Below are positions 3,250 through 64,000 of a stretch of DNA of 64,000 nucleotides, in pieces. Positions within the stretch are counted from its first letter, which is position 1, and each line of letters begins with the position of its first letter. Origin of the DNA: Vitis vinifera (taxonomy: Eukaryota > Streptophyta > Magnoliopsida > Vitales > Vitaceae). The position numbers and the translations under genes are program-made. Location: NCBI RefSeq assembly GCF_030704535.1, contig NC_081811.1, positions 2,744,501-2,808,500 of the forward strand, read 5' to 3'. The notes under the pieces were generated by a model that worked only from the letters and a program-made list of their open reading frames with translations, was not told the DNA's origin and made no database searches.

Positions 3250-6200
3250 TTTGAAGAACTGCGAGAGAAAAACTCAGGCGTCGTATTCGTGGGAAGATTG
3301 AAGGTAAGAGTTGGGTTGGGCCGGGTCGGGGCTTTGGCTGGATATTTTATGCCCTAACGGGCCTGTTGGCCGTGCTCGAACTGGATCAAGCACTGAGTCC
3401 CGAGTCGAGGCCCAGTTCTTGGTGAAGCGGAAAACTCATCATGTGTTGGCTTAGATACTAATAGTCGAAAATCTCGACTCTATATGAAGGAGTATCAATC
3501 TCCCCGACAAACATCTATTTGCATGAAACCCAACTTATATGGATAGATAAAAAGATGAAGTAAAAAAAAGATTAATTTCATTTTTACTTCTTCAAGTTTA
3601 GTATAAATATATTAAGATATCATTAGTTTTAAATTTCGTTAGTTAGTACACTATAGATGTATCTCATCTGTAATATTTATGTTTTTAGAGAATTGTTAAA
3701 TATATCTACCTAAATTCTTTCTAAAAATAAATTTTATAAATGGAATAAATTTATGAGGGTGTTGATTGACCAAATTTGGAATTAACAGTGATTATACAAA
3801 ACCTCATGGGTTTGATGGAAATTAACCCAATAAAAAATAAAAAAGATGCCTTGGGAATGTGACGTTTAAAATAATTTGGACTTGATTTTATTGGTGATAA
3901 ATTATTTATTGACAAAAAATGATAAAATTATAAAAAATTTCTTAACATATATAAAATATGCATTCATTTTTAACAAAATGTTACCATTTAAGATTTGTTT
4001 CACCATTGTTTTTTAAAAACAATTCTTAAAATCAATTTTCAATTGTTTACAAGAATAAAATTTTGTATTTAAGAACTTAAATATAAAAATTAGCTTTCTT
4101 AACTTATCTATATTAAATAAATAATTTATGTTTTAAAAGAAAAATTACATATGATATAATAATTCAGTTAATTTCATTCACATTTTCTTAGATTTCGATT
4201 AAATACATCTAACCCTCTTAAGTTTGAAATCTTAGTAAATACCTCATTTATCCTTTTTATTTCTTATTTTCACTCATCTCCCCCTCTCATTCAAAATAAA
4301 GAAGTTGTAGGATGAAATTTGAAACCTTATCTACATATATTTAACCAAAGTTCGAAGGTAAATGAAATTAATCTTATAATAATTTTGTAAAACATATCTA
4401 CTCATTACCATAGGCTTTAAGAAATAATAAGGTATGCTTATTTATTAATTAATAAAAATTAAATTTAATGAGATATAATTACATTTATTATATTTAATTA
4501 TATTAATAATTGACTATTTTTATTTAATATATGTTTAGATTTTTTGTTACAAAATAAACATGTGCATAAAATTATCATGACACTACTATATGTTTTTAAA
4601 CACAAATATTTAAAAGTTTAAAAAATTTGCTTCAATTTTTTTTAAATTATTTTTTCATAATTTTTATTAAATAATTTAAAAAATATACAATATTAACTTT
4701 ATTATCTGCACTTGGAATAAACCCAATTTTTTTAATAAAATATTGTTTTTAAAATATTATTAGTACTTTTAATTATTACTTATAAACCCTATAAAAATTA
4801 AGTGATTTTCAAAATAAATTATCCAAAAAATATTTTTTATCAAAATTTTATTGAAGATATTTTTTGAGTTAAAAAAACTATTTTCTATTAAAAAAAATAA
4901 AAATGGCTTCAAATATTTTTTTTATATTAAATATTTTGGGGAAAAAATTATTTAAAATTTGATATTTTGGGTCGAGGGGTGTTTGTGGGTGACACGTAGA
5001 GTTCCATTCTCCCACTTCCAAACAAACCCAGACCCCCACACCACAAAAAGAAAAACAAAAGGGAAAAAGGTGGCCTCCCCTTGCTTTAGAGTTTAGACCG
5101 ACATTTCATCCCTTAAAATGGAGCAAAAGTACAGCAAGAATACTCCAGGCCACTGCGTTCCACCCCCTAAAATGGAATGAAAATACAAGAAGAATCCAAC
5201 CCTATGTGCTCTCCTACTCAACCGCCTTGCTGTTTGCAAGATTTTGAGCTGAGATATCTATCTACACTCCTTGTGTTTTGATCAAACTATGCATCCAATA
5301 TAAGTAAGCTTAATTGCAGGTGTTCACGGAAATGACTCCAGGCCGACTCCCAGCACTTTTTCCTTGTAGGGTTTTATTCAAGTTGAGACAATGGGTTTGT
5401 TACATTCAACCCATACATAACAAATGAATCTATAACATATACCTAAAATATTACCAAGACCCGTATTTGGAATTGGAGCTAGCTAGCTAGCTGGCTAGGG
5501 CTATAATTTAAATCACAACCGATGTTGCAGGTTTGGTTGCTTTGTGGTATGTTTGACTAGAAGTCATTAATTGCTGTATGAAATCAATTAGCTTCACAAA
5601 TTCAAGCAAAAAAAAGTTGGGTGCCTAGCCTGTTGACTGCTCACTGACCAGTTCATTGATATCTTTGTGACTCACTCACAGATGTGTGGTGGCAAGCTTT
5701 TTAGCATAAATGTGGTTTTAGAGAAAGCATGGATGAAGTTGTGAGGCTAGCTAGCGGCAAGCTTTTTAGCATAAATGGGGTTTGAGGCCACAATTAAGAG
5801 GGTGATTAGCCATCCAGCCAGCTAGCTCCATAGCTGTAATGCCAAATATGATTAATTCCCACTTTTCAAGTAGTTCATGTAGGCACGAAAGATTGTATGG
5901 TTGGTTCCTTTGATCATCGAGAGATTAAAGACTTGTTGTTCTATCAAATTCTTATTTATAGTATGATCCAATATGGGATGTGTCTCAAGCTTAGTAGGCC
6001 ATGAGCTGGTCCTTCATCCATTAATTAATGCTTCATTTCATTTTCATCTTTTCAATATTTAGTTCCAGTGATCACATCGTGTGCAGGAGTATGTAAATAT
6101 GGAAAAACACTCTCTACCGAAAGTGGGTCATTTATGGGATTGAAGGTCGTAACGGTGAAGAATTATAATGGGATCTAACAAACCATTTTCAGAAAATCTA

Positions 6201-11330: not shown

Positions 11331-14090
11331 GTCTAGGTGATATGATTTAAGAGGCTTTAAATTATGAACTTTAATTTGATTAAAAAAAAGAAGAAAGAAA
11401 AGTAAAGGTAATGTATGGAAGTGTTTTTGGTATTAGAATGAATGAAATCATAGTTAGTTTATTTAGTATTATATGATAAATATTAAGAGTCTTTCTAAGT
11501 TGATTCGTGAAGTTTTAGGTTTTAAAGTTGGTAAAATTGGAGTATGAATTGTGTGCTTTGGCCTATTTGTTAGGGGGTTGGTGACAGTTGAAGAAAACTC
11601 TGGGAAATGGGAATAGTTAACACCTGTTATAGAATAGTGAATATTTTATTTACATAAGTTCAAAATTCTTCACTAATAATAACCACCCGACATGAAAAGA
11701 TAATAATAACCTAAGAATATCTAAGCAAAATGACAATAAGTAGAATATAGAACAACCCTCCTAAAAGAGGTAAAAAAACTGTGGAAAAGATTTCTTTTGT
11801 TTCAATCAAAACGAGAATACGACTTCTCACTAACTTCTATATATCTTAGAAACTAGTAAAGGTGATATCATCCAAGAGACTTTAAATTACTAACTTTGAT
11901 AAATAAATAAAAAAACGTTTTTATTCTTAGGATGAATGAAATTATAGTTAGTTTATTTGATATTATATGACAAACATAAAAAGTCTTTTTGAGTTTGTCC
12001 ATGAAGTTCAGGCTTTAAGTTAGAAAAATTGGATTTATATTGTGGGCTTTGGCCTACTTGAGGGAGGTTGATAATAAACTCAGCAAAATGGGAATAACTA
12101 GCACATATTACAATAGTGAATATTTTATTTGCACAAGTTCAAAATTCTTCCCCGATAATAACTATCTGGCAAGAAAAGATAATAATAACTCAAGAATATC
12201 TAAGTAAAATGATATCAAATATAATAAAAAAACCCTCACAAAGGAGGTAAAAAAACCCTAAAGAAGATTTCTTTTAGTTGAATCAAAATAAGCCTTAATT
12301 AGAAACTAGTGAAGGTGATATAATCCAAGAGACTTTAGATTACTAACTTTGATAAAAAAAAAAAAGAAGAAAAAAGAGTAAAGGTAGATCAATGAAAGTG
12401 TTTTTAGTCTTAGGATAAATGAAATCATAGTTAGTTTACTTGATATTATATGACAAATGTGAAAATTCTTTTGAATCGATCTATGAAGTTCAGGTTTTAA
12501 AGTTAGAAAAATTGGGATCTATATTGTGGGCTTTGGTTTGTTTGTTGGGGTTGATGACGATGTCTAAGTAAAATGATACCAAGTATAATATGAAAAAGCC
12601 CTCCTAAAGGAGGTAAAAAAACCCCAAAGATGATTTCTTCTATTTGAATCAAAATAAGCTTTAGAAACTAGTGAAGGTGATATGATTCAAGAGACTTTAA
12701 ATGACTAACTTTGATTAAAAAAAAGAGTATAGGTAGATCACTGAAAGTGTTTTTAGTCTTAGGATGAATGAAATCATAGTTAGTTTGTTTGATATTATAT
12801 GACAAATATAAAAAGTCTTTTTAAGTCTGTTCATGAAGTTGAGGCTTTAAATTGAGAAGAATTGGGATTTTTGTTGTGCGCTTTGACTTGTTTGTTAGGG
12901 GTTGATGATAAACACAACGAAATGGGAATAACTAGCACCTATTACACTAGTGAATATTTTATTTTCACAAGTTCAGAATTCTTTCCCAATAACAACTATC
13001 TGGAAAGAAAGAATAACAATAACCCAAGAATGTCTAAGTAAAATAATACCAAGTATAATATGAAAAAAAAAACCTCCTAAAGGAGGTGAAAAAACCTTAA
13101 AGAAGATTTCTTCCATTTGAATCAAAATAAGCTTTAGAAACTAGTGAAGGTGATATGATCCAAGGTACTTTAAATTACTAACTTTGATAAAAAAAAAAAA
13201 AAATAGAGTAAAAGTAGATCAATGAAAGTGTTTTTAGTCTTAGGATAAATGAAATCATAGTTAGTTTACTTGATATTATATGACAAATATAAGAAGGCTT
13301 TTTGAGTCCGTCCATGAAGTTTAGACTTTAAATTTAGAAAAACTGGAATCTATAATGTGAGCTTTGGCTCGTTTATTGGGGGTTGATGATAAACTCAATG
13401 AAATGGAAATAACTAGCGCTAATTACACTAGTGAATATTTTATTTGTACAAGTTCAAAATTCTTCCTCAATAATAACTATCTGATAATAAAGGATAACAA
13501 TAACTCAAGAGTAAAGATAGATTAATGGAAGTGTTTTTGGTCTTAGGATGAATGAAATCGTAATCAGTTTATTTGATATTATATGACAAATATGAATAGT
13601 CTTTTTAAGTTGGTCCATGAAGTTCAAGCTTTCAAGTAAAAAAAATTGGGTCTATATTGTGGGCTTTGGCCTATTTGTTGGAGGTTGATGATAGTTGAAA
13701 AACAATTTAATGAAATAGGAATAGGTAACACTTGTTACAGTAATGAATATTTTATCTACACAAGTTCAAAATTCTTCCCCAAGAAAAAAAAAGGATAATA
13801 ATAACCCTAAGAATATCTAAATAGAATGACACCAAATATAATGTGGAAAAACCCTTTTAAAGAAGATAAAAAAAACCTAGAGAAGATTTCTTCCATTTTA
13901 ATTAAAATGAGAATACAACTTCTCACTAACTTCTGTGCTTTAGAAACTAGTGAATGTGATATAATCCAAGAGTCTTTAAATTATTAATTTTGATAAAAAT
14001 AAATAAAAATTAATAGGTAGATCAAGGGAAGTGTTTTTGGTACGAGGATGAATAAAATTATAGGTAGTTTATTTAATATTAGTAGGTTTG
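11330..14090 (+). repeat. Degenerate tandem repeat array, about seven units of 360-530 bp
   Basis: The phrase GGTGATATGATCCAAGAGAC, or close variants, followed by TTTAAATTACTAACTTTGAT and an A-run recurs near 11,336, 11,862, 12,315, 12,677, 13,150 and 13,956. A truncated unit begins near 13,501. Each unit continues with AAAGTGTTTTTAGTCTTAGG, GTTAGTTTATTTGATATTAT, a GGGCTTTGG block and AATATTTTATTTGCACAAG. Unit length varies because of internal deletions. The array has no coding capacity and no terminal repeats that would mark it as one transposon. Confidence 0.75.
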
Positions 14091-50183: not shown

Positions 50184-50495
50184 ATGCTGGTAGGTTTAGA
50201 AGAAAGAAAAAGAGAGGGGACAAGTGGGAGAATGAGAGAGGAGTTGAGACAAAGGGAGGCTTTTATTCAGATACTGCAGACTTATTTTAGAGATCATGGT
50301 GGGAGATGGAATGTCAACTTGAGAGAGATGCCCACCCACGACACTCTTCTTCTAAAATCACTACATCACCTACAAGCCACAGGTCAAATCTCTCCCTCGT
50401 TTCATTCTTTTTCCCCTTTTTTTTATAATAGTATGTTTAATTGCCAGAAAATTTGTGAGAAAATTAAAGGGATAAAAAATAGAAATAAAAAGTAG
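50184..50495 (+). CDS. Unrecognised ORF, 103 codons
   Basis: ATG at 50184. The first 73 residues are hydrophilic and look protein-like (REAFIQILQTYFRDHGGRWN, then EMPTHDTLLLKSLHHLQ); the rest runs into low-complexity sequence. A CAG|GTCAAAT donor after residue 67 and a TTTTATTCAG acceptor inside the frame suggest it may be an exon of a spliced gene or a relic. No family is recognised. Confidence 0.2.
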   Translation: MLVGLEERKREGTSGRMREELRQREAFIQILQTYFRDHGGRWNVNLREMPTHDTLLLKSLHHLQATGQISPSFHSFSPFFYNSMFNCQKICEKIKGIKNRNKK

Positions 50496-51657
50496 AAATA
50501 AAAATAATTAATTAAATTAATTTAAAAAAAGAGATTTAAAGATAATAAATTATTTTTATATATTATTTTATGATTTATTTTGATTATTTAATATAAAATT
50601 AAATCATTTATAAATTATTTTACCTTTTTAATTAATTTTAATTTTATTTATTTATTTTTTCATATTTTTCATAACATAATTAAACAAAACAAAAAAAAAA
50701 TTATTTTTTTCCTAAATACTTTCTGATAACCCATCATAACCCTTATATTTTTTTCTTTATATATATATAATATAATTTTTTTTTCATATTTTTATTAATT
50801 AAGATACGCAAATAATGAATTAAAATATATAAATATTTGTGGAAATGACACATGTTACGTTGCCTCTAGTAATTGCAAATGACACCTCCCATTCCAATCC
50901 TGATTTTATTTGATCCTGATTTTATTTGATGACGTAGATGTGATCCAACAGTTGAAAGTTGGATTATTTCAGATACTCTTTCTCATGGTGTTGGTGCTTC
51001 TATATCTTATCGACTTTGAATATTTCTTACATAAAGCTTTTGGTTCTCTTGTCAAGACAAGGGTCGTTTGGCTACATGGTCAACTTCAAAATCCTACTAA
51101 AGTTGATTTTCATCTTGTCGCTTTCCTCTAAAAGCCTAAATTTTTGTTGTTCAACTTTTTACTATTCGAAAAAACTCTTAATTCAAACGAATTTTATGTT
51201 TCAAAACCTCGATAATAATTATAATAACGTGATAAATGTCATTTTTATTGGTTCTTGATTATGATCAATCCTCTAGGTAGTCACTTCAATGCCTCTTGTT
51301 CTTAATGATCCCATAAAAAAGGTATGCTCGGGTGTGTGCCAACAGATCTCTCCAATTCTAAGGTAAAACCTACATATCACTCTTTTTTTGCATTTCTTCT
51401 TATTTTATTGATTTGAGTTTTTACAATATCCACTTGTTTTTTATGACTTATTTTAATTTGGTATTTATATTATAACGTCATCTTAGTAATATCATGTACC
51501 CCACTAATGTCGCATATCAGTCACTTTCTTATAATGTTGTATAACAGTCAATTGCTACTAACGACACAATTAAGTTAATTCAAATATAATTGTTCATGCT
51601 TACTTTGCTCAAGGAAATATACCTATTTAGATAATTCATGTATGAGACGCTTATCTG

Positions 51658-51839
51658 GATGACCTACTACCAAGGGTATCCATAATTTCTACTAAGCTCC
51701 AACTTATTTCCTATCTTAAATTTCATCACGTTTTTTTGGACCATGAAAGATGACCTACTACCAAGGGTACCCATAATTTCTACTAAGCTCCAGGTTATTT
51801 CCTATCTTAAATTTCATCACCTTTTTTTGGGCCATGAAA
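51658..51839 (+). repeat. 91 bp tandem duplication found only in copy 1
   Basis: Two units start at 51,658 and 51,749 with GATGACCTACTACCAAGGGT and end with CCATGAAA. Copy 2 has a single unit at 57,456-57,546. So the unit doubled after the large duplication, or copy 2 lost one. Confidence 0.8.
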
Positions 51840-53499
51840 TTTGGCCTTGAGAGAAAGAGTATACTTTTGTTATTCCTCTTGTGAATGTCACATATCCAAG
51901 GCTCCATTCTAAAAATTTTCAATGGTACTCATTCTTGATTCATAAGCAACCAATCAATCACTAGTTTTTATTTAATAATAGATCTTTTAATACTAATTTT
52001 CATTCAATGAAATTTAAACTCTGATAGACTATTTGACATTATTAATATAAACCTTGATATAAGATTAGTTAATGAAAAATAAATAAATATTTACATGATA
52101 AATAAAAATATGAATAAGAAAATAAAAGAAATTTTGGAGGTAAGTAGAAATAAATTACGCTATAAAGATATTTTACAAGAATAAATAGGTAAAATTTCAA
52201 ATGTTCCAAAGGATAAATAATTTTGATTACACCATGCACTTTGTATTTTCAAATGAATCATAATAATAATGAATAAATAAAATAAATTTTTTATGAATTT
52301 GGTTTTTAAAATAAGTAAGATTTTAATTTGTATAATAAATAAAAGTAGCCAACACGAAGTAAGATAATTTTTTTATATAAATGGAAATAAATTATATTAT
52401 GAGAATATTTTTGATGAAATAAAAGATTTAATGTAATATATATTTAAAATAATTAAAATAATTTTAAAAATCTAAATAATAACTATTTAATATTAAAGTT
52501 AATATAAACTCATCATTCTTATTCTTATTTTGATATTTTCCTTTTAAATTATCTCCACGTTTATTTTTTCTAGTTTATTTTATCCATTGGAATTTCGTAA
52601 ATTAAGAATCTAAATAAAATGTAATAATAAGAGTGGAAAAAAAATCAAATTTCATTAAATCCACATAAATAGAATAATTTCTCAATAATCAAAATTATAA
52701 AATTCATCCGTTCATATATTTTTTTTAAAGTTAAAAATTAATAATTAATAATAATTAAATATCTTTAAAAAATATCATCAAGATAAAGTGCATAATGCCT
52801 AAATTATTTATTTAAATATAGTAAAATTTAAAATTTATTGCTAACAGTTATTTTATAATAATACAATTATTTTTAAAATAAATATGAAATTTAATTAATT
52901 AATATTTTTATTTTTATATAAAATGAAAGAATTTAAGTAAACGAATTTATGCACAATGAAATATAAATAAAACAATATATATATATATATAGATATATAT
53001 ATATATTAAATTTGTGAAAACCGAAACCAAAATTGAGAAGTTTTTTGTTTTCTAAAATAAAAAATAAGGAAAACTCATTTGATAATAAAAAAGGGTTTTT
53101 ATTTTTTTTGTTTTTAACAATAGAAAATAAGATATTTTTAGAAAACATTTTTTAGATATTTTATATTGTTTTCATTTATATTTTTAGGACTAGTTTAAAA
53201 AATAATGATGCAAATATATAAAATAATTAAAAATAAAATATTAAATATTAAATTTATTTTTAAAACATATTTAAAAAATATTAAAAGTGAATTAAAAATA
53301 TTTTAACATTTCAAACAATCTTTTGTTCTATAAAATATTAAAAAATAATTTTTAAAAACTGTTATGAAAAACTGTTTTAGAAAACAATTACTAAATACGC
53401 CTTCAACTCCATTTGAACTTGAACTTGAAGTTGGTTGAGGTGATTTTTTCATCGGCTCAAGACATCCGAATTGCAGAATTAAAGATTTAAGCCCACTCA

Positions 53500-53680
53500 G
53501 AGCCCACAAATAAAATTTGGGTCGGCCCAGGCTCGGCCCATTATCACCTGTCTAACGCTGAACATCGCTTTAGGGTTTGGTTGCAGTACCAGAATCCCCC
53601 ATGTATATTTACGCCAAATGATTCCATCATAGTTTCTTCTCCAAACGCTGCGTTTCTGTTGATCTTTGAGTTCAAGGTAC
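53500..53680 (+). promoter_or_regulatory. Promoter and noncoding first exon, copy 1
   Basis: GGCCCA-type site II motifs near 53,523-53,540, a telo-box TTAGGGTTT at 53,570-53,578, and an exon ending TTCAAG|GTACTG (donor at 53,677) have the form of a housekeeping-gene 5' end. A six-codon upstream ORF starts at ATGTATATTTACGCC near 53,600. The LINE at 54,366 separates this copy from the continuing sequence, so it may be silent or serve as a distant alternative start. Confidence 0.55.
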
Positions 53681-54365
53681 TGCTCCAATCTCTTTTCCCC
53701 ATTCAATCAATTGAGTTATAGCTTAGATACATGTTTGGATGCTGAGAAATTTCTAAGTTTGATACGATCGTTTGGATGCTGGCAAAATAATGAGAAACTG
53801 AAAGAAAATTTTCCATCGTAATTTTTTAAGCGTATAGGGGTCGAGAATACAGAATATGGTACTTTACCTAAAACTCGACACTTCGGCTTAGTTGATCTGA
53901 GGAGTTTTTTTTTTTTTTTTTTGGAATTCTAGGGTTTCCGTTTGAACAGCCGCGGAGATATTGCAAATTTGAATTACAGATCAGACTGGAATTTTCGTTG
54001 GTTTGACGGTCTTTACTATTTGGGAATGTTTCCTTGTATGGAAATAGATTTAGGAAAAAAAAAAAAAAAAACAGAAGAGAAAAGTAATAACAAAATGAAT
54101 AAAAGGGTGAATTTATTATGATCTTTAAGGTGAATTCGTTATGATTGTTAGAGCTAATAATAAAAGTGTGGAATATGGGGGGAAATAAGTGACATGGTAG
54201 GGATAGTTTGAGAAGGAAAAAGTCTACAAATAACATTTGGTGACTTCTGCATGTGCTTGTAGTAGTAGGGCATTGTGTATGCACTTGCATTGGCAAAATT
54301 GGGAAAAAGTTATGCACGCTATCTTGCTAAGATTATGGATGCAAAAAACCTAGCCAGGATGATAT

Positions 54366-56873
54366 ATTTTTTTTTGTTTGATGAATAAAGAGCAATATAT
54401 TAAAAGAAAAGAGGCACAAGGAAGCACCCCAAAGTATACATGTAATATACAAAAGAGAGCAAAAAGAAACCCTTGACTATGGCCTAACCAATCTACAAAA
54501 TCTACAACGGAAGGGGGACCAGAGCCAAAAAACCCCTTAATTCCACGCCCACAGATTACAAAGGAAAAACAATTTACATCCACGAATCGAATGCTCCTCG
54601 TTTTCAAACACCCTACTATTTCTATCCTTCCAGACAATCCAAAAAAAGCACAAGAGAGTTGAAAACCACACTTTCTTCCTTTCCTTTCCCACACAAGGCT
54701 CAAGCCAACCCAATAACGTCTCTCTAACTGAGGAGGGGAGCACCCATGAAACCCCAAAGAGGAAAAAAAGTAAGCTCCATAAACTTTTGGCCAACACATA
54801 ATGCAAGAGGATGTGATCAATAGACTCTTCCTCTGATAGACACAAATAACATCTGTTAGCCAAGTAGAACCCTCTCCTCTGAATACAATCCAAGGTTAAG
54901 GCTTTTTTCCACGTAGCCTCCCAAGCAGAAAAAACACACCCTTGGAGGCACCAAAGAATTCCAAATAACTCTTGCAAGAAAATCCCATAGTCTTTTTGGT
55001 TCCAATGTCTTGTAAAGAGACTTAACATAAAATCTTCCATCTTTGCTTTTGTCCAAACTACTTGATCTTCCACATCACCATAAACCCTCCTCCCTTGCAA
55101 CCTTAAGAGAAAACGTTCTACATCGAACACTTCCCCATCATTAAGCTACCTAGAGAACCTAGGAGCCCACACTCCCCCTCCAGCATGGCTCCACACATCC
55201 TCCACCCAAGCCTCCTTAGCCAAGGATATAGCAAATAAAGAGGGACCACACCACTTGTTCTTCCAAAATCTAACCCTCGTACCATTCCCCACAGAATAAA
55301 CCAAGTTGCCGCCTATCACATCCCAACCTCTTCTAATCGCTTTCCATAAACCAACCCCAAAACTACCTCTCACAACGCAGGGCCTCCAACCGCCCTCTTC
55401 TTCCCCATACTTTGCACAAATAACTTGCCTCCACAAAGCTTCCCTTTCTACTGCAAAACGCCAACTCCACTTACATAGGAGGGTCTTATTCAACAACGCC
55501 ATATTCCTCACACCCAATTCACCCTTTTGTTTATCTGAGCAAACAATAGACTAATCCACTAAATGGGGCTTCCTCTTTAGGGCTCCACCACCCCAAAGAA
55601 AGTCCATTTGGATCTGCTCCAATCTCAAACTCACACTCCTTGGCATATGAAACAGGAACATACAGTAAATAGACATACTAGATAGAGTGCTCCTGATCAA
55701 AGTCAGTCTACCCCCTTTGGAGATATACTGTCTTTTCCAAAAGGAAAGCCTCTTCCTCATCCTTTCCTCAACCCAGTCCCAAACCGCCACTTCCTTGAAA
55801 CGAGCACCCAAAGGAAGACCCAAATAAGAAGATGGGAGCTTGCTAACCTTGCAACCAAACTCAATGGCCAACTCCTCTACATTCTCCACTCTTCCCATCA
55901 CGATGATCTCACTTTTGTCCAAATTCACATTCAACCCTGACATGGCTTCAAACCACATAAGGAGTCAACTCAAGTAGGACACCTGATCAATGAAAGGCCC
56001 ATAGAATACTAAAGTGTCATCCGCGAACAACAAATGAGTGATCTCCACTCCCGCACCTCCTCTACCATTGAGCTACCACCCCAACAAAAACCCTCCCTCC
56101 TTCGCTCTCTTCAATAAACAACTAAGAGACTCCATGACAATCACAAACAGGTAGGAGGATAAATGATCTCCCTATCTCAATCCCCGAGAACTTTGGAAAA
56201 AACCTGAGGGAGTCCCATTAATAAGGACGGAGAAACTGACAGTACCAATACACCACTGAATCCAGCTAATCCATTTATCTCCAAAACCCATCATTTCTAG
56301 CAACCAAAGAAGAAAACTCCAATTTACATGGTCGTATGCCTTCTCAATATCCAACTTACAAAGAATGTCACCACCCCCACTTTTCTACATTGAATCAATC
56401 GCCTCATTCGCAATCAGCGAGGCATCCAGAATTTGCCTTCCCTCCACAAATGCATTTTGGGACTTAGACACTATCTTACCAATCACCTTTTTAAGCCTAT
56501 TAGCTAGCACATTTGCTAACAACTTGTAAAGATTGCCCCCCAAGCTTATAGGCTTAAAGTCATTGAGATCTATAGCTACTCCTTTCTTAGGAATTAAAAC
56601 CAGAAAAGAAGCATTAATGCTCTTGACGAACTTGCTCTGATCATGAAAGTCCTAAAGAACCCCATAACTTCCTCCTTCAAAAAACTCCAACCGAATTGCC
56701 AAAATGTCATTGTGAAATCATCAGGACCAGGAGTTTTATCTCCATTGAGGTCTGAGAGAGCACCAAACACCTCTTCCTAAAAAAAATGAGCCTCTAACAT
56801 TGCTGCAACTTCCTCTTCCAGGACCCTAACCTGCAGCCCATTGCATCTGGGCCTCCACTCATTTCTTTTTGAC
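54366..56873 (-). mobile_element. 5'-truncated L1-type LINE at the duplication junction
   Basis: On the minus strand the element runs from about 56,873 to an A-tail at 54,377-54,366 (T-run on the plus strand). Reverse transcriptase pieces are clear: LSDLNGDKTPGPDDFTM near 56,760-56,710, [15 protein letters not shown] near 56,354, [10 protein letters not shown] near 56,175, and the catalytic THLLFADDTLVFYG near 56,040-56,000. Then come the thumb region (SSYLGLPLGARF, 55.85 kb), GGRLTLIRSTLSSMSIY, and the zf-RVT motif (CYLCLSEEESIDHILLH, 54.85-54.8 kb). ORF1 and the endonuclease are absent, so it is 5'-truncated by about half. The coding part is broken into at least four open pieces by stops and frame changes. 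The usual flanking target duplication is missing: the left flank is the end of copy 1, the right flank the start of copy 2. Confidence 0.9.
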
Positions 56874-57986
56874 AATACAATGGCCAACTTCAAAATCTTA
56901 CTAAAGTTGATCTTCTTCTTGTCACTTTCCTCTAAAAGCCTAAATTTTTGTTGTTCAACCTTTTACTCTTTGAAAAACCTCTTAGCACAAATGAATTTCA
57001 TACCATTATGTTTTAAAACCTCGAAAATAATTATAATAACATGATAAATGTCCTTTTTACTGGTTTGACCAATCCTCTAGGTAGTCACTTCAATGCCTCT
57101 TGTTCTTTACGATCCCGTAAAAAAAGGTAAGCTCAAGTGTGTGCCAACAAATCTCTCCAATTCTAAGGAAAATCCTACATACCTCTCTTTTTTTGCATTC
57201 CTTCTTATTTTATTGGTTTGAGTTTTTGCAACATCTTATAACTTATTTTAATTTGGTATTTATATTATAACGTTATCTTAATAATATCATGTATCCCACT
57301 AATACCGCATACCAGTCATTTTCTTACTAATGTTGCATAACAGTCAATTACTATCGACGACACAATTAAGTTAGGCCAAATATAATTACCCATGCTTACT
57401 TTGCTCAAGGAAAGGTACCTATCCAGATGATTCATGTACGAGACGCTTTTCTGGATGACCTACTACCAAGGGTACCCATAATTTCTACTAAACTCCAATT
57501 TATTTCCTATCTTAAATTTCATCACCTTTTTTTGGGCCATGAAATTTGGCCTTGAGAGAAAGAGTATACTTTTGTTACTCCTCTTGTGAATGTCGCATAT
57601 CCAAGGCTCCATTCTAAAAATTTTCAATGGTACTCATTCTTGATTCATAAAATCAATCACTAGTTTTTATTTAATAATAGATCTTTTAATACTAATTTTC
57701 ATTCGATGAACTTTAAACTCTGATAGACTATTTGACATGATTAATATAAACCTTGACATAAGCATAAAGAAATGAATATCACAATTTATGATTAGTTAAT
57801 GAAAAATAAATAAATATTTACATGATAAATAAAAATAAGAATAAAAAAATAAAAGAAATTTTGGAGGTAAGTAGAAATAAATTACGCTATGAAGATATTT
57901 TACAAGAATAAATAGGTAAAATTTCAAATGTTCCAAAGGATAAATAATTTTGATTACACCATGCACTTTGTATTTTCAAATGAATC

Positions 57987-58026
<40 letters not shown>

Positions 58027-58938
58027 CAAATAAAATTTTTATGAATTTGGTTTTTAAAATAAGTAAGATTTTAATTTGTATAATAAATAAAAGTAGCAAA
58101 GACAAAGTAAGACTATTTTTTTTATATAAATGGAACTAAATTATATTATGAGAATATTTTTGATGAAATAAAAGATTTAATGTAATATATATTTAAAATA
58201 ATTAAAATAATTTTAACAATCTAAATAATAACCATTTAATATTAAAGTTAATCTAAACTCATCATTCTTATACTTATTTTGATATTTTCCTTTTAAATTA
58301 TCTCCACGTTTATTTTTTCTAGTTTATTTTATCCATTGGAATTTTGTAAATTAAGAATCTAAATAAAATGTAATAATAAGAGTGGAAAAAAAATCAAATT
58401 TCATTAAATCCGCATAAATAGAATAATTTCTCAACAATCAAAATTATAAAATTCATTAGTTCATAAATTTTTTTTAAAAGTTAAAAATTAATAATAATTA
58501 AATATGTTTAAAAAAAATCATCAAGGTAAAGTGCATAATGCCTAAATTATTTATTTAAACATAGTAAAATTTAAAATTTATTCCTAACAGTTATTTTATA
58601 ATAATATAATTTTTTTTAGAATAAATATGAAATTTAATCAATTAAGCTTTTTTATTTTTATATAAAATGAAAGAATTTAAGTAAACAAATTTATGCACAG
58701 TGAAATATAGATATTTGTTCCATAAATAAAACAATATATATATATATATATATATATTAAATTTGTGAAAACCGAAACCAAAATTAAGAAGTTTTTTATT
58801 CTCCAAAATAAAAAATAAGGAAAACTTGTTTGATAATCAAAAACAATTTTTATTTTATGTCGTTTTCACTTATTTTTTTAGGACTGATTTAAAAAATAAT
58901 GATGCAAATATATAAAATAATAAAAAATAAAATATTAG

Positions 58939-61900
58939 TGTGGACCCCGCATTTCAGCTCATGCGTTTCCCACTCGAAGGCGAGCTCGATTTTGATTTCG
59001 AAAAATGATTTTATTGATTAAGAAAAATTGACTTGGAGTCGCCACTTATTTTTGTTTTATTTTAAAAAAAAAGGATAAACAAAATAAGAAAGAAAACCCT
59101 AAGTGTGACTCCTTATTTTGGAAAATGTGGTATGTGAAAAACCGGATCAGGCTCGAGAGTCAGATTACTTATCTAGAAGGTACGGTAAAAACCGTAGCAC
59201 CCCTCTAAGTTCCTAAAGTAAAAACCGTAGCACCCCTCTAAGTTCCTAAAGTAGGGTCTCTACTAATAAAATTGAAACAATCATGACAATGGATGAGTAA
59301 ATCAATAAATACCCAGGATAGATCATGCACATGTGAGTATCGGGACATGCATAGACAATGATTAGAGGGAAAATGGATACATAGCTAGGCAACGATCCAC
59401 CATGCGCTATCAATAAAGGGGTTAGTGCACAATTTAGGAATAATTTCTAGTATACATGTCAGAGAGCAGGATAAATCAATCATGTATCATAATCAAATCG
59501 ATCTATCAGTTAATCAATCTATCAGTCACATATGTGGGGCCCCCACCAAAGCCCGTTTATTTTACATAAATTAATCCCATAAATTCCATTATTCGGAATT
59601 ATGGAAAATTCCATTATTCGGAATTATGGAAAATTCGTTTATGCTTATTAAAATCAAGAGGAGCAGAAGATTGTTTGAAGACCAGAATGGAATTAAAGCT
59701 ATTTGAGAGAAAATCGGATTTTTGAAATTCATTTGAAAAATTGGAGTCTCGAAGGTTATTTAAAGAAAATTGGGATTTTAGAGTTTATTTGAAGATCGGA
59801 CTTTCAGGAATTAAATGTGAGAATGAGAATTTTTATAAATTAAATTTGAACAAGGTTGGAAACTTGAAAATGATTTGAGAGTTCGGGATTTTAAATGAGG
59901 GGATAAGTGGATGAGTGAATAAGTAAAGGAATGAAATAACGATGGTGAAATAATAAAGTTTAGGTAAATAATTGCGAAAGATGGAATTTTAGAGATTTGA
60001 AGATGTGAATTTAGATATTGAAAACTTAAGAATTTATTTAGAGATGAGATCTTTGGTATATGAATAACTGAATAAGTAAGTGGATGAGATAACATTAATA
60101 ACGAGAATAATCATTAAACGGCGATATATGGACGATGGAGTTTTTGAGATTGGAAATTAGATTTGGAAGTCGGATTCTGATGAATTAAACTTTAACAATT
60201 AGAATAAACAGATAATATGGAATAATAATGCTACTTAACGGAAACAATATTTTAAACGAATAGAAAAGGAGCAGTGGAATTTTAAGATTGAAAATTAAGT
60301 TAGGACGTTGAATTTTTGAAGAATTGGACCTTAAATGAATAAAAAAATAGGGGATAAAAATTCTAGTTAACGAAAATAACATTTAGGCGAATAATAGAAT
60401 TTCTAAGGTTGAAAGTTAAATTGAGATTTTTGAAAGATTGGACTTTAAATAAATATGGGATGATGATTCTAATGGATGAAAATGAAATTTAAACGAATTG
60501 TAGAATTTTTTTTTAGGATTGAAAAATTAAATTAAAATATGGAATTTTTTAAGGATTAGAATTTAAATAACTAAATAAATACGGGATTATAATTTTAATT
60601 AATGAAAATAAGATTTAGATGAATTGTAGAATTTTTAGGATTGAAAAATTAAATTAAAACATGGAATTTTTGAAGGATTAGACTTTAAATAACTAAATAA
60701 ATACGATATTGTAATTCTAAGTGATGAAAATAAGGTTTAAATGAATTGTAGAATTTTTAGGACTGAAAATTTGAATTAAAATATGGAATGTTCGAAGGAT
60801 TAGACTTTAAATAACTAGATAAATGCGGGATTACAATTCTAATTAATGAAAATAAGATTGAGTTGAATTGTAGAGTTTTTAGGATTTGAAAGATTAAATT
60901 AAAACATGGAATTTTTGAAGGATTAAACTTTAAATAACTAGATAAATACGGGATTATAATTCTAATCGATGAAAATAAGATTTAAATGAATTACATAATT
61001 TTTATTATTGAAAAATTAAATTAAAACATGGAATTTTTGAAGGATTAAACTTTAAATAACTAGATAAATACGGGATTATAATTCTAATCGATGAAAATAA
61101 GATTTAAATGAATTACATAATTTTTATTATTGAAAAATTAAATTAAAACATGGAATTTTTGAAGGATTAAACTTTAAATAACTAGGTAGATACGGGATTA
61201 TAATTCTAATTAATGAAAATAAGATTTAGTTGAATTGCAGAGTTTTTAGGATTTAAAAGATTAAATTAAAACATGGAATTTTTAAAGGATTAAACTTTAA
61301 ATAACTAGATAAATACGAGATTATAATTCTAATCGATGAAAATAAGGTTTAAATGAATTGTATAATTTTTAGGATTGAAAAATTAAATTAAAACAAGGAA
61401 TTTTTGAAGGATTAAACTTTAAATTACTAGATAAATACGGGATTATAATTCTAATTGATGAAAATAAGGTTTAAATGAATTGTAGAATTTTTAGGATTGG
61501 AAAAGTAAATTAAAACATGGAATTTTTGAAGAATTAGACTTTAAATAACTAGATAAATACGAGATTAAAATTCTAATTGATGAAAATAAGATTTAAATGA
61601 ATATTTGAAGAATTAAATTAAGACATGGGACTTTTGAAAAATTACTTAAAGGCCTAAGTTTTGAAAATGGGATTTAAAGTTTAGAATGTAGAAAATTATT
61701 TGAGTCCAATATAAATTTATTTATACAAAAAATTTTCATATATGGTGATTTAGACATAATTTAAAGATGGGAAGGTGAAATATAAATTATCTTGAGTTTT
61801 GAAAGGATATCCAACCTTAATAATTTGTCCTTTAATCGTCCTCAAGTTGAGTTAAATAAATTGGTAGAAATAGAATAAGATAACAAATAAAAGGGAAGGA

Positions 61901-62222
61901 TTGAATTAATTAATTATGGATATTAGAGATTTTTAAGAGAATTATTTAGGATTTGGGCAACCTAATGGGCTAAATTGATGTGGGCATGGGCCAATGAGGG
62001 TGGCTAGCATAGGAGGCATGGGGCCTTCATCAACATGCTTGGGTTGGGCTCCAACTCAAGCCCAAACCCGTCACCAAGAGCTTAGGTCTGGGCTCCAACT
62101 TAAGCCCAAGGCACCATCACCATCAAAGCTTGGGCCTAGGCTCCAACTTATTTCAAAAAAGAAATGCAAAGAAGAGAGAAAAAAAAACTCTCTCCCGGGG
62201 CCCCCCACAAAAGGGGTCTACA
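58939..62222. mobile_element. Solo LTR, Ty3/gypsy-like, 3.28 kb
   Basis: The element begins TGTGGACCCC and ends GGGGTCTACA (imperfect inverted ends, TG...CA) and is flanked by a 5 bp direct repeat ATTAG at 58,934-58,938 and 62,223-62,227. The matching place in copy 1 (near 53,241) has no insert. It holds no coding region or primer site, so it is what remains after recombination between the two LTRs of a longer element. The lead region with GAGTCGCCACTTATTTTTG and CGTAGCACCCCTCTAAG is typical of long gypsy LTRs of dicots; Tat/Ogre-like is a guess. It is younger than the segmental duplication. It looks like a whole LTR. Confidence 0.85.
60541..61640 (+). repeat. 122 bp tandem repeats within the solo LTR
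   Basis: The phrase GGAATTTTTGAAGGATTA recurs at 60,541, 60,663, 60,785, 60,907, 61,029, 61,152, 61,274, 61,397 and 61,519: nine units of 122-123 bp. More degenerate units extend left to about 60,300. Two adjacent units (about 60,907-61,151) are almost identical, so some amplification is recent. Units contain AACTTTAAATAACTAGATAA and ACGGGATTATAATTCTAAT. Confidence 0.85.
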
Positions 62223-62469
62223 ATTAGATATAAAAATTATTTTTAAAAAATATTAAAAGTGAATTAAAAATATTTTAACATTTCAAACAATCTTTTGTTC
62301 TATAAAATATTAAAAAATAGTTTTTAAAAACTATTATAAAAAAACTGTTTTGGAAAACAGTTACTAAATACGCCTTCAACTCCATTTGAACTTGAACTTG
62401 AAGTTGAGGTGATTTTTTCATCAGCTCAAGACATCCGAATTGCAGAATTAAAGATTTAAGTCCACTCAG

Positions 62470-62660
62470 AGCCCACGAGTAAAATTTGGGCCGGCCCAGG
62501 CTCAGCCCATTATCACCTGTCTAACGCTGAACTCAAGTTGTACATCGCTTTAGGGTTTGGTTGCAGTACCAGAAGCCCCGATGTATATTTACGCCAAATG
62601 ATTCCATCATAGTTTCTTCTCCAAACGCTGCGTTTCTGTTGATCTTTGAGTTCAAGGTAC
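62470..62660 (+). promoter_or_regulatory. Promoter and noncoding first exon, copy 2
   Basis: It contains the same elements as the block at 53.5 kb: GGCCCA motifs near 62,490-62,507, telo-box TTAGGGTTT at 62,550-62,558, the ATGTATATTTACGCC upstream ORF, and an exon ending TTCAAG|GTACTG with its donor at 62,657. Here the following intron-like sequence runs uninterrupted to the right edge, so this copy probably drives a gene whose coding exons lie beyond 64,000. Confidence 0.55.
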
Positions 62661-63349
62661 TGCTCCAATCTCTTTTCCCCATTCAATCAATTGATTTGTA
62701 GCTTGATACATGTTTGGATGCTGAGAAAGTTCTAAGTTTGATACGATCGTTTGGATGCTGGCAAAATAATGAGAAACTGAAAGAAAATTTTCCTTCGTAA
62801 TTTTTTAAGCGTATAGGGGTCGAGAATACAGAATATGGTACTTTACCTAAAACTCGACACTTCGGCTTAGTTGATCTGAGGGGTTTTTTTTTTTTTTTTT
62901 TTTGAATTCTAGGGTTTCCGTTTGAACAGTCGCGGAGATATTACAAATTTGAATTACAGATCAGACTGGAATTTTCGTTGGTTTGACGGTCTTTGCTATT
63001 CGGGAATGTTTTCTTGTATAGAAATAGATTTAGAAAAAAAAAAAAAAAAAAAAGAACAGAAGAGAAAAGTAATAACAAAATGAATAAAATGGTAATTTAT
63101 TATGATCTTTAAGGTGAATTTGTTATGATTGTTAGAGCTAATAATAAAAGTGTGGAATACGGGGGGAAATAAGTGACATGGTAGGGATAGTTTGGGAAGG
63201 AAAAAGTCTACAAATAACATTTGGTGATTTCTGCATGTGCTTGTAGTATTAGGGCATTGTGTATGCACTTGCATTGGCAAAATTGGGAAAAAGTTATGTA
63301 CGCTATCTTGCTAAGATTATGGATGCAAAAAATCTAGCCAGGATGATAT

Positions 63350-64000
63350 TGATTATGCCAAGTTCTGCCTGCTTGCATGGTTGAATGGCCTATCGACATA
63401 TATATGAATGTAGATACATGTATTATCCTTGCTGAATGTAGATATGTCCGGTTTCTTGCATGTAATTGGTGAAAACTGATCATTGTCTGAGATGCAGGTT
63501 TAATTTTCGGAGTGTTTATATAAATGCTGCGGATTTTTCGTTATGTAGTTAATTTGAAGGATTTAACTGTCAACAACTTTTGTGTGTCATTTTTAGATAC
63601 TGTGAACCTACAAATTTTGCTAAGTATGGTCCGAGTTGACTTTAGGTGGATATAAATGGTCCTTTTTCCTGCCTTTTCTTTTTGGAGCTTGCAATATTAA
63701 CTTCACATTATGATCCTTTTCAATTTTTCTTTCTTTTAGACGCACTCAAAAGTTTGATTTTCAGCCTACAGTTCTCTGTTTGATGTTTGGTGCCTGAAAA
63801 ATTTAGGTTCATATACGTTTTAGATATCAGTCTTACCATTTTAGCATTCTAATACCCACACTTGGATTAAAGGGCTGACTACTCATCTTTTTCCTATTAT
63901 GGTGACCAGTAACTTAAGAGTGAGAAGGATGTGGGTTAATTTCTGTATCACAGATTTAAGCAATAACTAATATCATTTGTCTGCTTATCTAGCGTAGAAA
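63350..64000 (+). other. Right edge, probable first intron of the next gene
   Basis: Unique sequence follows the end of the duplication. No ORF of note is seen. Its T-rich base composition and position after the splice donor at 62,657 fit a first intron. Candidate acceptors occur (for example GAGATGCAG near 63,498), but no coding exon can be recognised. Confidence 0.4.

Follow-up and report, generated by a model that had tools for sequence, protein, structure and literature searches.

In this study, we show that two direct copies of a ~3.2-3.3 kb unit, lying in a 64,000-nucleotide stretch of grapevine (Vitis vinifera) DNA (the window), have between them a 5'-truncated L1-type LINE whose two ends coincide exactly with the start and the end of the unit. 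We propose that the LINE, through its own insertion, probably created this tandem duplication as a giant target-site duplication. The original prediction had placed the LINE exactly at the junction of a tandem duplication, and both self-comparison of the window and the base-level edges confirm that position. Alignment of the two copies gives three blocks of self-match, with BLAST identities of 86%, 90%, and 95%. The right edges predicted earlier are exact, and the left edges, given as 51073 and 56876, were off by three to four bases and now stand at 51076 and 56880 (Table 1). That nothing but the LINE lies between the copies holds except for one extra A. The left outer edge reads GGCTAC/ATGGTCAAC.

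Table 1. Positions in the window of the duplicated unit, its parts, and the LINE at its junction
Feature	Position	Strand	Remarks
Copy 1 of the unit	51076-54365	+	3290 bp; starts ATGGTCAACTTC (51076), ends GATGATAT (54365)
91-bp tandem repeat, 2.0 copies	51658-51839	+	Private to copy 1
MITE-like dispersed repeat	53039-53399		Copy 1; many genome matches
Promoter/5'-leader-like stretch, copy 1	53512-54226	+	Orphaned by the LINE; 74-79% alike to the C3 stretch
Likely splice donor, copy 1	53677		By eye, inferred
Single A separating copy 1 from the T run	54366	+	From base-level edges
5'-truncated L1-type LINE	54367-56879	-	3' end on the left (nine T = A9 tail, 54367-54375), 5' end ~56879
LINE piece with zf-RVT (PF13966)	54537-55142	-	37.2 bits, Pfam cut-off 27.5
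Two LINE pieces, partial RVT_1	56172-56651	-	27.1 and 26.2 bits, below the cut-off of 29.6; E 4e-6 and 8e-6
Junction of LINE 5' end with copy 2	56876-56883		ATGG in native sequence; in the LINE family two bases off register
Copy 2 of the unit	56880-63349	+	6470 bp; starts ATGGCCAACTTC (56880), ends GATGATAT (63349)
TG..CA insert, 3284 bp	58939-62222		Copy 2 only; dispersed family, putatively solo-LTR-like
Promoter/5'-leader-like stretch, copy 2	62481-63210	+	Matches the same C3 stretch as copy 1
Likely splice donor, copy 2	62657		By eye, inferred
Right edge of copy 2	63349-63350		GATGATAT/TGATTATG

Within copy 1, single-copy sequence is followed by an AT-rich stretch, a MITE-like element, and promoter/5'-leader-like sequence that is halted at the LINE. 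Copy 2 owes its greater length only to the TG..CA insert, which interrupts its counterpart of the MITE-like repeat and is flanked on both sides by ATTAG (58934-58938 and 62223-62227); minus the insert and one ATTAG, it measures 3181 bp against the 3290 bp of copy 1. When the genome (495.6 Mb in 21 contigs) was searched, the whole unit was found, among the matches listed (40 candidates scored), only at its own second copy, indicating that the duplication is not due to chance. The remaining matches are to pieces of it, namely the dispersed MITE-like stretch, short AT-rich matches, and the promoter-like stretch on contig C3. A genome-wide search for relatives spanning position 51076 gave nothing beyond the second copy and, at ~50400-50760, a dispersed repeat.

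The outer breakpoints are clean, and this bears on how a LINE could have come to lie at the junction. An unequal crossing-over between LINE copies on either side of the unit would be expected to leave just such a LINE behind. However, it needs a LINE at an outer edge as well, and in the 2 kb on each side there is no match to the LINE, nor do the two flanks match each other; we regard this origin as very improbable. Just as improbable is an assembly artefact in which two haplotypes of one locus were joined head to tail: there is no N in the window, the copies differ at 5.4% of sites, and the sequence runs unbroken across the junction, through a LINE that has a neutral history of its own.

The right part of the unit resembles the start of a gene. 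An OTU-protease reading frame lies downstream of the leader-like stretch of copy 2, beyond the window. A motif search for the first coding exon of the gene, ahead of the OTU frame, found none, and the leader is therefore linked only putatively to the OTU gene. No OTU frame was found near the related C3 stretch, around which 7 kb was read. Nor does the C3 relative bear witness to the native right edge, since its match ends before that edge is reached (at 63210); the native state of the edge is thus putative, too, and this counts against a joint origin of LINE and duplication.

The LINE itself retains its 3' end and an A9 tail at its junction with copy 1, as target-primed insertion gives. In the Pfam scan, which took in five reading-frame pieces, zf-RVT, the region after the reverse transcriptase, scores above its cut-off in one of the five. 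The endonuclease domain is missing because of the truncation; Exo_endo_phos is matched in the longer copy L004 (27.4 bits, cut-off 24.5, with stops read as X), and no match to it was found in the L005 and L007 stretches given. At the 5' end of the LINE, the microhomology, as read from the sequence, is ambiguous and may amount to 0-4 bp.

No short target duplication flanks the window LINE; the best match between its two flanks spans 10 bases, includes one mismatch, and does not lie at the junctions. Formally, the entire duplicated unit occupies the place of the target duplication. The absence noted in the original prediction stands but carries less weight than was given to it there. Clear short target duplications are present in only three of 14 other copies examined (L038, 11 bp; L044, ~13 bp, by eye; L004, a 22-bp exact match), with L043 and L045 judged by eye only. 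Since most other old copies show no clear target duplication either, the absence in the window copy is weak evidence alone, a further point against a joint event. The cut site at the 3' junction, GATGATAT/TGATT, contains no T run, the motif of the human-type L1 endonuclease, and this counts against a joint event as well. The lack of both a T-rich cut motif and a short target duplication would fit a LINE cDNA that, without the LINE endonuclease, patched a double-strand break where the region was already duplicated or in the course of duplication. Nevertheless, endonuclease-independent insertions often have no intact 3' end and A tail, both of which this LINE possesses, and we consider such a patch quite improbable.

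It was also of concern whether the duplication reflects a property of the LINE family. Its copies carry A-rich tails at their 3' ends, and their 5' ends fall at many positions. The sister copy L002 (contig C11) has its 5' end within ~4 bases of the LINE position at which the window copy ends, and the two are grouped with a support of 67 (8 copies) or 87 (16 copies). The truncation seen in the window may therefore be inherited or mark a stop hot spot, and the shared end counts against a joint event. It had been suggested that one event made the duplication and also the truncated 5' end; the joining of a LINE cDNA to a site ~3.3 kb away would account for the duplication and its junction at once, and the first part of the suggestion is supported, while the second is weakened by L002.

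A habit of this LINE subfamily to form giant target duplications was rejected: of the other truncated copies, 11 were tested (L002, L006, L008, and L038-L045; chosen non-randomly, by score and truncation), and a young flank duplication was found in none. The test was sensitive enough for nine of them. The duplication in the window was itself missed with 1500-bp flanks and detected with 2000-bp flanks, and L006 and L008 were therefore unable to show one. L002 was retested with 5.4-kb flanks; in all other copies, duplications much larger than 3.5-4 kb would be missed. L045 has repeats of 65-66% on both sides; as there are several of them, and their divergence exceeds that of the LINE, we take them for an older array. 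The flanks of L004 hold direct repeats of ~140 bp (79%), with the 22-bp exact stretch at the junction; there, the LINE either hit a short array or made a target duplication of moderate length. Likewise rejected was an element with constant ends and a fixed size of 3.05 kb; it was an effect of the truncated query L006, and longer copies extend further up.

The ages of the LINE and of the duplication were compared. With the 91-bp repeat copy at 51658-51748 and the insert omitted, the copies differ at 167 of 3084 sites (5.4%), or 0.027 per lineage. This divergence is uneven, with 10.6% in the left block and 2.9-8.1% elsewhere, and the left block, taken by itself, yields 0.053 per lineage, or double the strict LINE count; a single age for the duplication is therefore a simplification, and the unevenness counts against a joint event. 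The LINE carries private changes at 69 of 2492 sites. They are spread evenly over the codon positions (19/22/20), in contrast to the 24/10/50 of four internal branches (p = 0.0007), for which counts were taken from four tree-consistent splits and eight conflicting splits of 3-7 sites each were left out. Most of the private changes therefore arose after insertion, and at most 38% could be older. The tree branch of the window copy, which is an upper limit only on the age of the LINE, measures 0.053 with 8 copies and 0.052 with 16. The LINE age of 0.016-0.053 per site brackets the value for the duplication, and transversions alone give 0.0072-0.0094 for the LINE versus 0.0091 for the duplication. 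One-sided C-to-T decay, expected from spreading methylation, was not seen in the block adjacent to the LINE (18 vs 28). Judged from these counts, the two ages appear compatible within error, with no detectable sign that the LINE is the younger of the two.

This comparison touches on the possibility that the tandem duplication came first, by end joining or a replication error, and that the LINE landed later at or near the junction, where a deletion erased both the junction and any short target duplication. Deletions at LINE insertion sites are known, and structure alone does not separate this order of events from a joint one. Moreover, the left block allows for an older duplication with gene conversion of the rest, and the LINE could be as young as the lower end of its range. 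However, two independent events would have to meet at one place, a younger LINE is not what the ages indicate, and the native breakpoints show, by eye, no obvious microhomology with each other, so that we hold duplication before insertion to be unlikely. The earlier view that the LINE is unlikely to have arrived later, by a simple insertion that left an ordinary target duplication, is supported by the agreeing ages, the LINE-free outer breakpoints, and the precedent of human L1. A joint event is favoured by the clean outer breakpoints, by private changes that are mostly post-insertion, by ages that agree within error, and by the lack of young flank duplications in the other truncated copies.

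In such a joint event, the cut in the plus strand would have fallen behind GATGATAT, at the native right edge, so that GATGATAT/TGATTATG would represent the native sequence where the LINE cDNA was primed. The RNA of an L1-type LINE would have annealed there through its A tail and been copied from this end by target-primed reverse transcription. The resulting cDNA would then have been joined, through its 3' end, to a break or nick ~3.3 kb upstream instead of the usual second nick a few bases off, the upstream partner being possibly the same duplex after opening, the sister chromatid, or the homologue. Fill-in or chromatid bridging could have produced the order unit, LINE, unit in a single event. 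Later, the TG..CA element would have entered copy 2, and the 91-bp repeat would have arisen in copy 1.

It seems somewhat more probable than otherwise that, in the germline of a plant, one LINE integration whose cDNA was joined ~3.3 kb away duplicated the promoter and leader of a gene. Integration of a LINE that involves a distant second break would hence give rise to inherited duplications of kilobase size in organisms other than animals, and would leave a spare promoter next to the intact gene. If true, the failure by which human L1 produces kilobase target duplications in repair-deficient cells also occurs, and is inherited, in plants, and provides a route for copying promoters and first exons. 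Its signature, a unit whose ends are the ends of a LINE, could be counted genome-wide, and the poorly understood second-nick step of LINE integration could be tested in plant repair mutants. Among the open-access papers listed in our searches, no kilobase duplication made by a LINE was found for plants. We think it likely that the present locus is an inherited plant case of a mechanism known from human cells and a tumour (PMC5223499, PMC7058536).

Ordinary LINE insertions carry short target duplications, with a median of 21 bp in humans (PMC4245944, PMC12350158). The window LINE resembles ordinary 5'-truncated insertions in its truncated 5' end, its A tail, and the possible short microhomology at the 5' junction, and differs from them, as well as from its relatives L038, L044, and L004, in having no short target duplication (PMC4245944, PMC12350158). 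In a human tumour, an L1-bridged tandem duplication has been described; in the model of its authors, the cDNA is joined to a sister-chromatid break (PMC7058536). As in the window, a direct tandem duplication has a single L1 at the point where its copies meet; however, the tumour duplication is 22.6 Mb in size, somatic, and has a TTT/A-type motif at the 3' breakpoint, whereas the one reported here is kilobase-sized, inherited, and has no such motif (PMC7058536). In repair-deficient human cells, L1 target duplications are given as 5 bp to 5.3 kb, with a median of 1495 bp (PMC5223499). Those are new engineered insertions in cultured cells, in contrast to an old, diverged plant locus with no known repair defect, yet the arrangement in the nucleotide-excision-repair-deficient cells is like the one in grapevine, with a LINE between direct kilobase copies of its target (PMC5223499).

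We show that a tandem duplication with a LINE at its junction, as the original prediction had it, is real, since self-comparison and base-level reading place the LINE between two direct copies of one unit. The single A at 54366 has no clear assignment to either copy 1 or the LINE. Without a 3284-bp insert in copy 2, the unit measures 3290 bp in copy 1 and 3181 bp in copy 2. In the genome searched (495.6 Mb, 21 contigs; the window is C7:2744501-2808500), the unit as a whole had no further occurrence among the matches listed (40 candidates scored), and the remaining matches listed were a MITE-like piece, short AT-rich pieces and a promoter-like stretch on contig C3. The insert, a member of a dispersed family in the genome search, looks like a solo LTR; within it, at 60449-61602, a 122-bp unit is repeated in tandem about 9.4 times. 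Elsewhere in the window, a direct-repeat cluster at 11335-14081 includes a 481-bp unit with two copies at 12560-13510.

Features of the duplicated region and its surroundings
Feature	Position	Strand	Remarks
Copy 1	51076-54365		Self-comparison and base-level reading
LINE, window copy	about 54367-56879	minus	Self-comparison and base-level reading
Copy 2	56880-63349		Self-comparison and base-level reading
3284-bp insert	58939-62222		Inside copy 2; starts TGTGGACCCC, finishes GGGGTCTACA (TG..CA); ATTAG at each side
OTU-domain open reading frame, 303 aa	C7:2809878-2810786		Outside the window

In the domain profile search, the LINE gave a zf-RVT match above the cut-off and two partial RVT_1 matches, both below it; an endonuclease match is present in one longer copy of the family. 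Relatives of the LINE stand at 40 or more genome places (only the best candidates were scored). In the window copy the truncation falls immediately ahead of the reverse transcriptase part; the 3′ end has nine A, and LINE similarity at the 5′ end extends to about 56879. ATGG is present both at 51076 of the native sequence and, shifted by two bases, in the LINE family, so microhomology at the 5′ junction is put at an uncertain 0-4 bp. Beyond 63349, copy 2 continues towards the frame with the OTU protease domain (E 2.5e-35), and the promoter-like stretch matches C3 in both copies. Since the C3 match ends at 63210, short of the right edge of copy 2, and a motif search upstream of the OTU frame found no first coding exon, we infer rather than observe that the right edge of copy 2 and the left edge of copy 1 are native and that both LINE junctions are derived. 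Should this assignment be correct, the promoter and leader in copy 1 are orphans. Four short fragments on C5 (1972438, 2075268, 2183158 and 2291034) correspond to the last 26-27 residues of the OTU protein at 92-93% identity, and their spacing of about 103-108 kb suggests a large tandem array on that contig.

The absence of a short target duplication, also claimed in the original prediction, was borne out by comparison of the flanks, in which no match was better than 10 bases including one mismatch, and that one lay clear of the junctions. Alone this is weak evidence, because a clear short duplication was seen in just 3 of 14 other copies examined (11 bp in L038, about 13 bp in L044 as judged by eye, and an exact 22 bp in L004), in a survey where L005 and L007 reach upstream of the tested stretch and the reading of L043 and L045 was by eye alone. 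In terms of LINE structure, the entire duplicated unit stands in the target duplication's place, since one copy starts after the A tail and the other finishes ahead of the 5′ end. Crossing-over between LINE copies, as another origin of the duplication, is disfavoured by the 2-kb outer flanks, which contain no LINE sequence on either side and do not match each other. No young direct flank duplication was found in 11 other truncated LINE copies (flank against flank, long enough in 9 to reveal a duplication of this size), and the structure is therefore not a habit of the LINE family. One of the 11, L045 (C10:19894100-19898900), is a truncated LINE in an older array of ~350-400 bp repeats with 65-66% identity. 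A twelfth copy, L004 (C12:62940-65498), has, besides its 22-bp exact junction match, direct flank repeats of about 140 bp (79%, at 15-150 and 4053-4193), representing either a short array that was hit or a moderately long target duplication.

Over 3084 aligned sites the two copies show 167 differences, 111 of them transitions and 56 transversions (K2P distance 0.0565), or 0.027 per lineage, with divergence by block, left to right, of 10.6%, 2.9%, 8.1%, 4.1% and 2.9%. The left block (51076-51657 / 56880-57453) is far more diverged than most of the rest, mostly by transitions and with no C-to-T bias towards one side. This would fit a block that changes faster as well as gene conversion of the others, and the left block alone would allow an older duplication (0.053). 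The LINE carries 69 private changes in 2492 sites relative to seven other copies, and its tree branch measures 0.053 with 8 copies and 0.052 with 16. Private changes fall on codon positions 1/2/3 as 19/22/20, against 24/10/50 on four internal branches summed (p = 0.0007), and the pooled terminal branches are likewise nearly even (110/117/131). Most are therefore post-insertion, with at most 38% older, which gives a LINE age of 0.016 or more. When only transversions are counted, the LINE comes to 0.0072-0.0094 and the duplication to 0.0091 per lineage, the error being wide. The two ages are compatible, and the LINE may be moderately younger.

We consider a joint event quite probably the best explanation of the duplication and the LINE junction. 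Target-primed reverse transcription would have started at the right edge of the unit, and the cDNA end would then have been connected, possibly on the sister chromatid, to a nick or break some 3.3 kb upstream. The original prediction proposed a mechanism of this kind; its proposal that the same event truncated the LINE is doubtful. The window LINE's nearest sister, L002 (C11:7931942-7934474), groups with it at support values of 67 in the 8-copy tree and 87 in the 16-copy tree. L002 lies at an unrelated site, yet in LINE coordinates the two 5′ ends are no more than about 4 bases apart, and the truncation may thus predate the insertion.

The open-access literature searched yielded no plant precedent for a kilobase duplication made by a LINE. 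In cells lacking nucleotide excision repair, L1 target duplications of kilobase size are described in PMC5223499 (5 bp to 5.3 kb, median 1495 bp); in HeLa cells, according to the same paper, duplications of >100 bp never exceeded 10% of events. The same kind of joining is the explanation given in PMC7058536 for a tumour's L1-bridged tandem duplication. The kind of event is thus already known, and what is added here is an old, inherited plant example.
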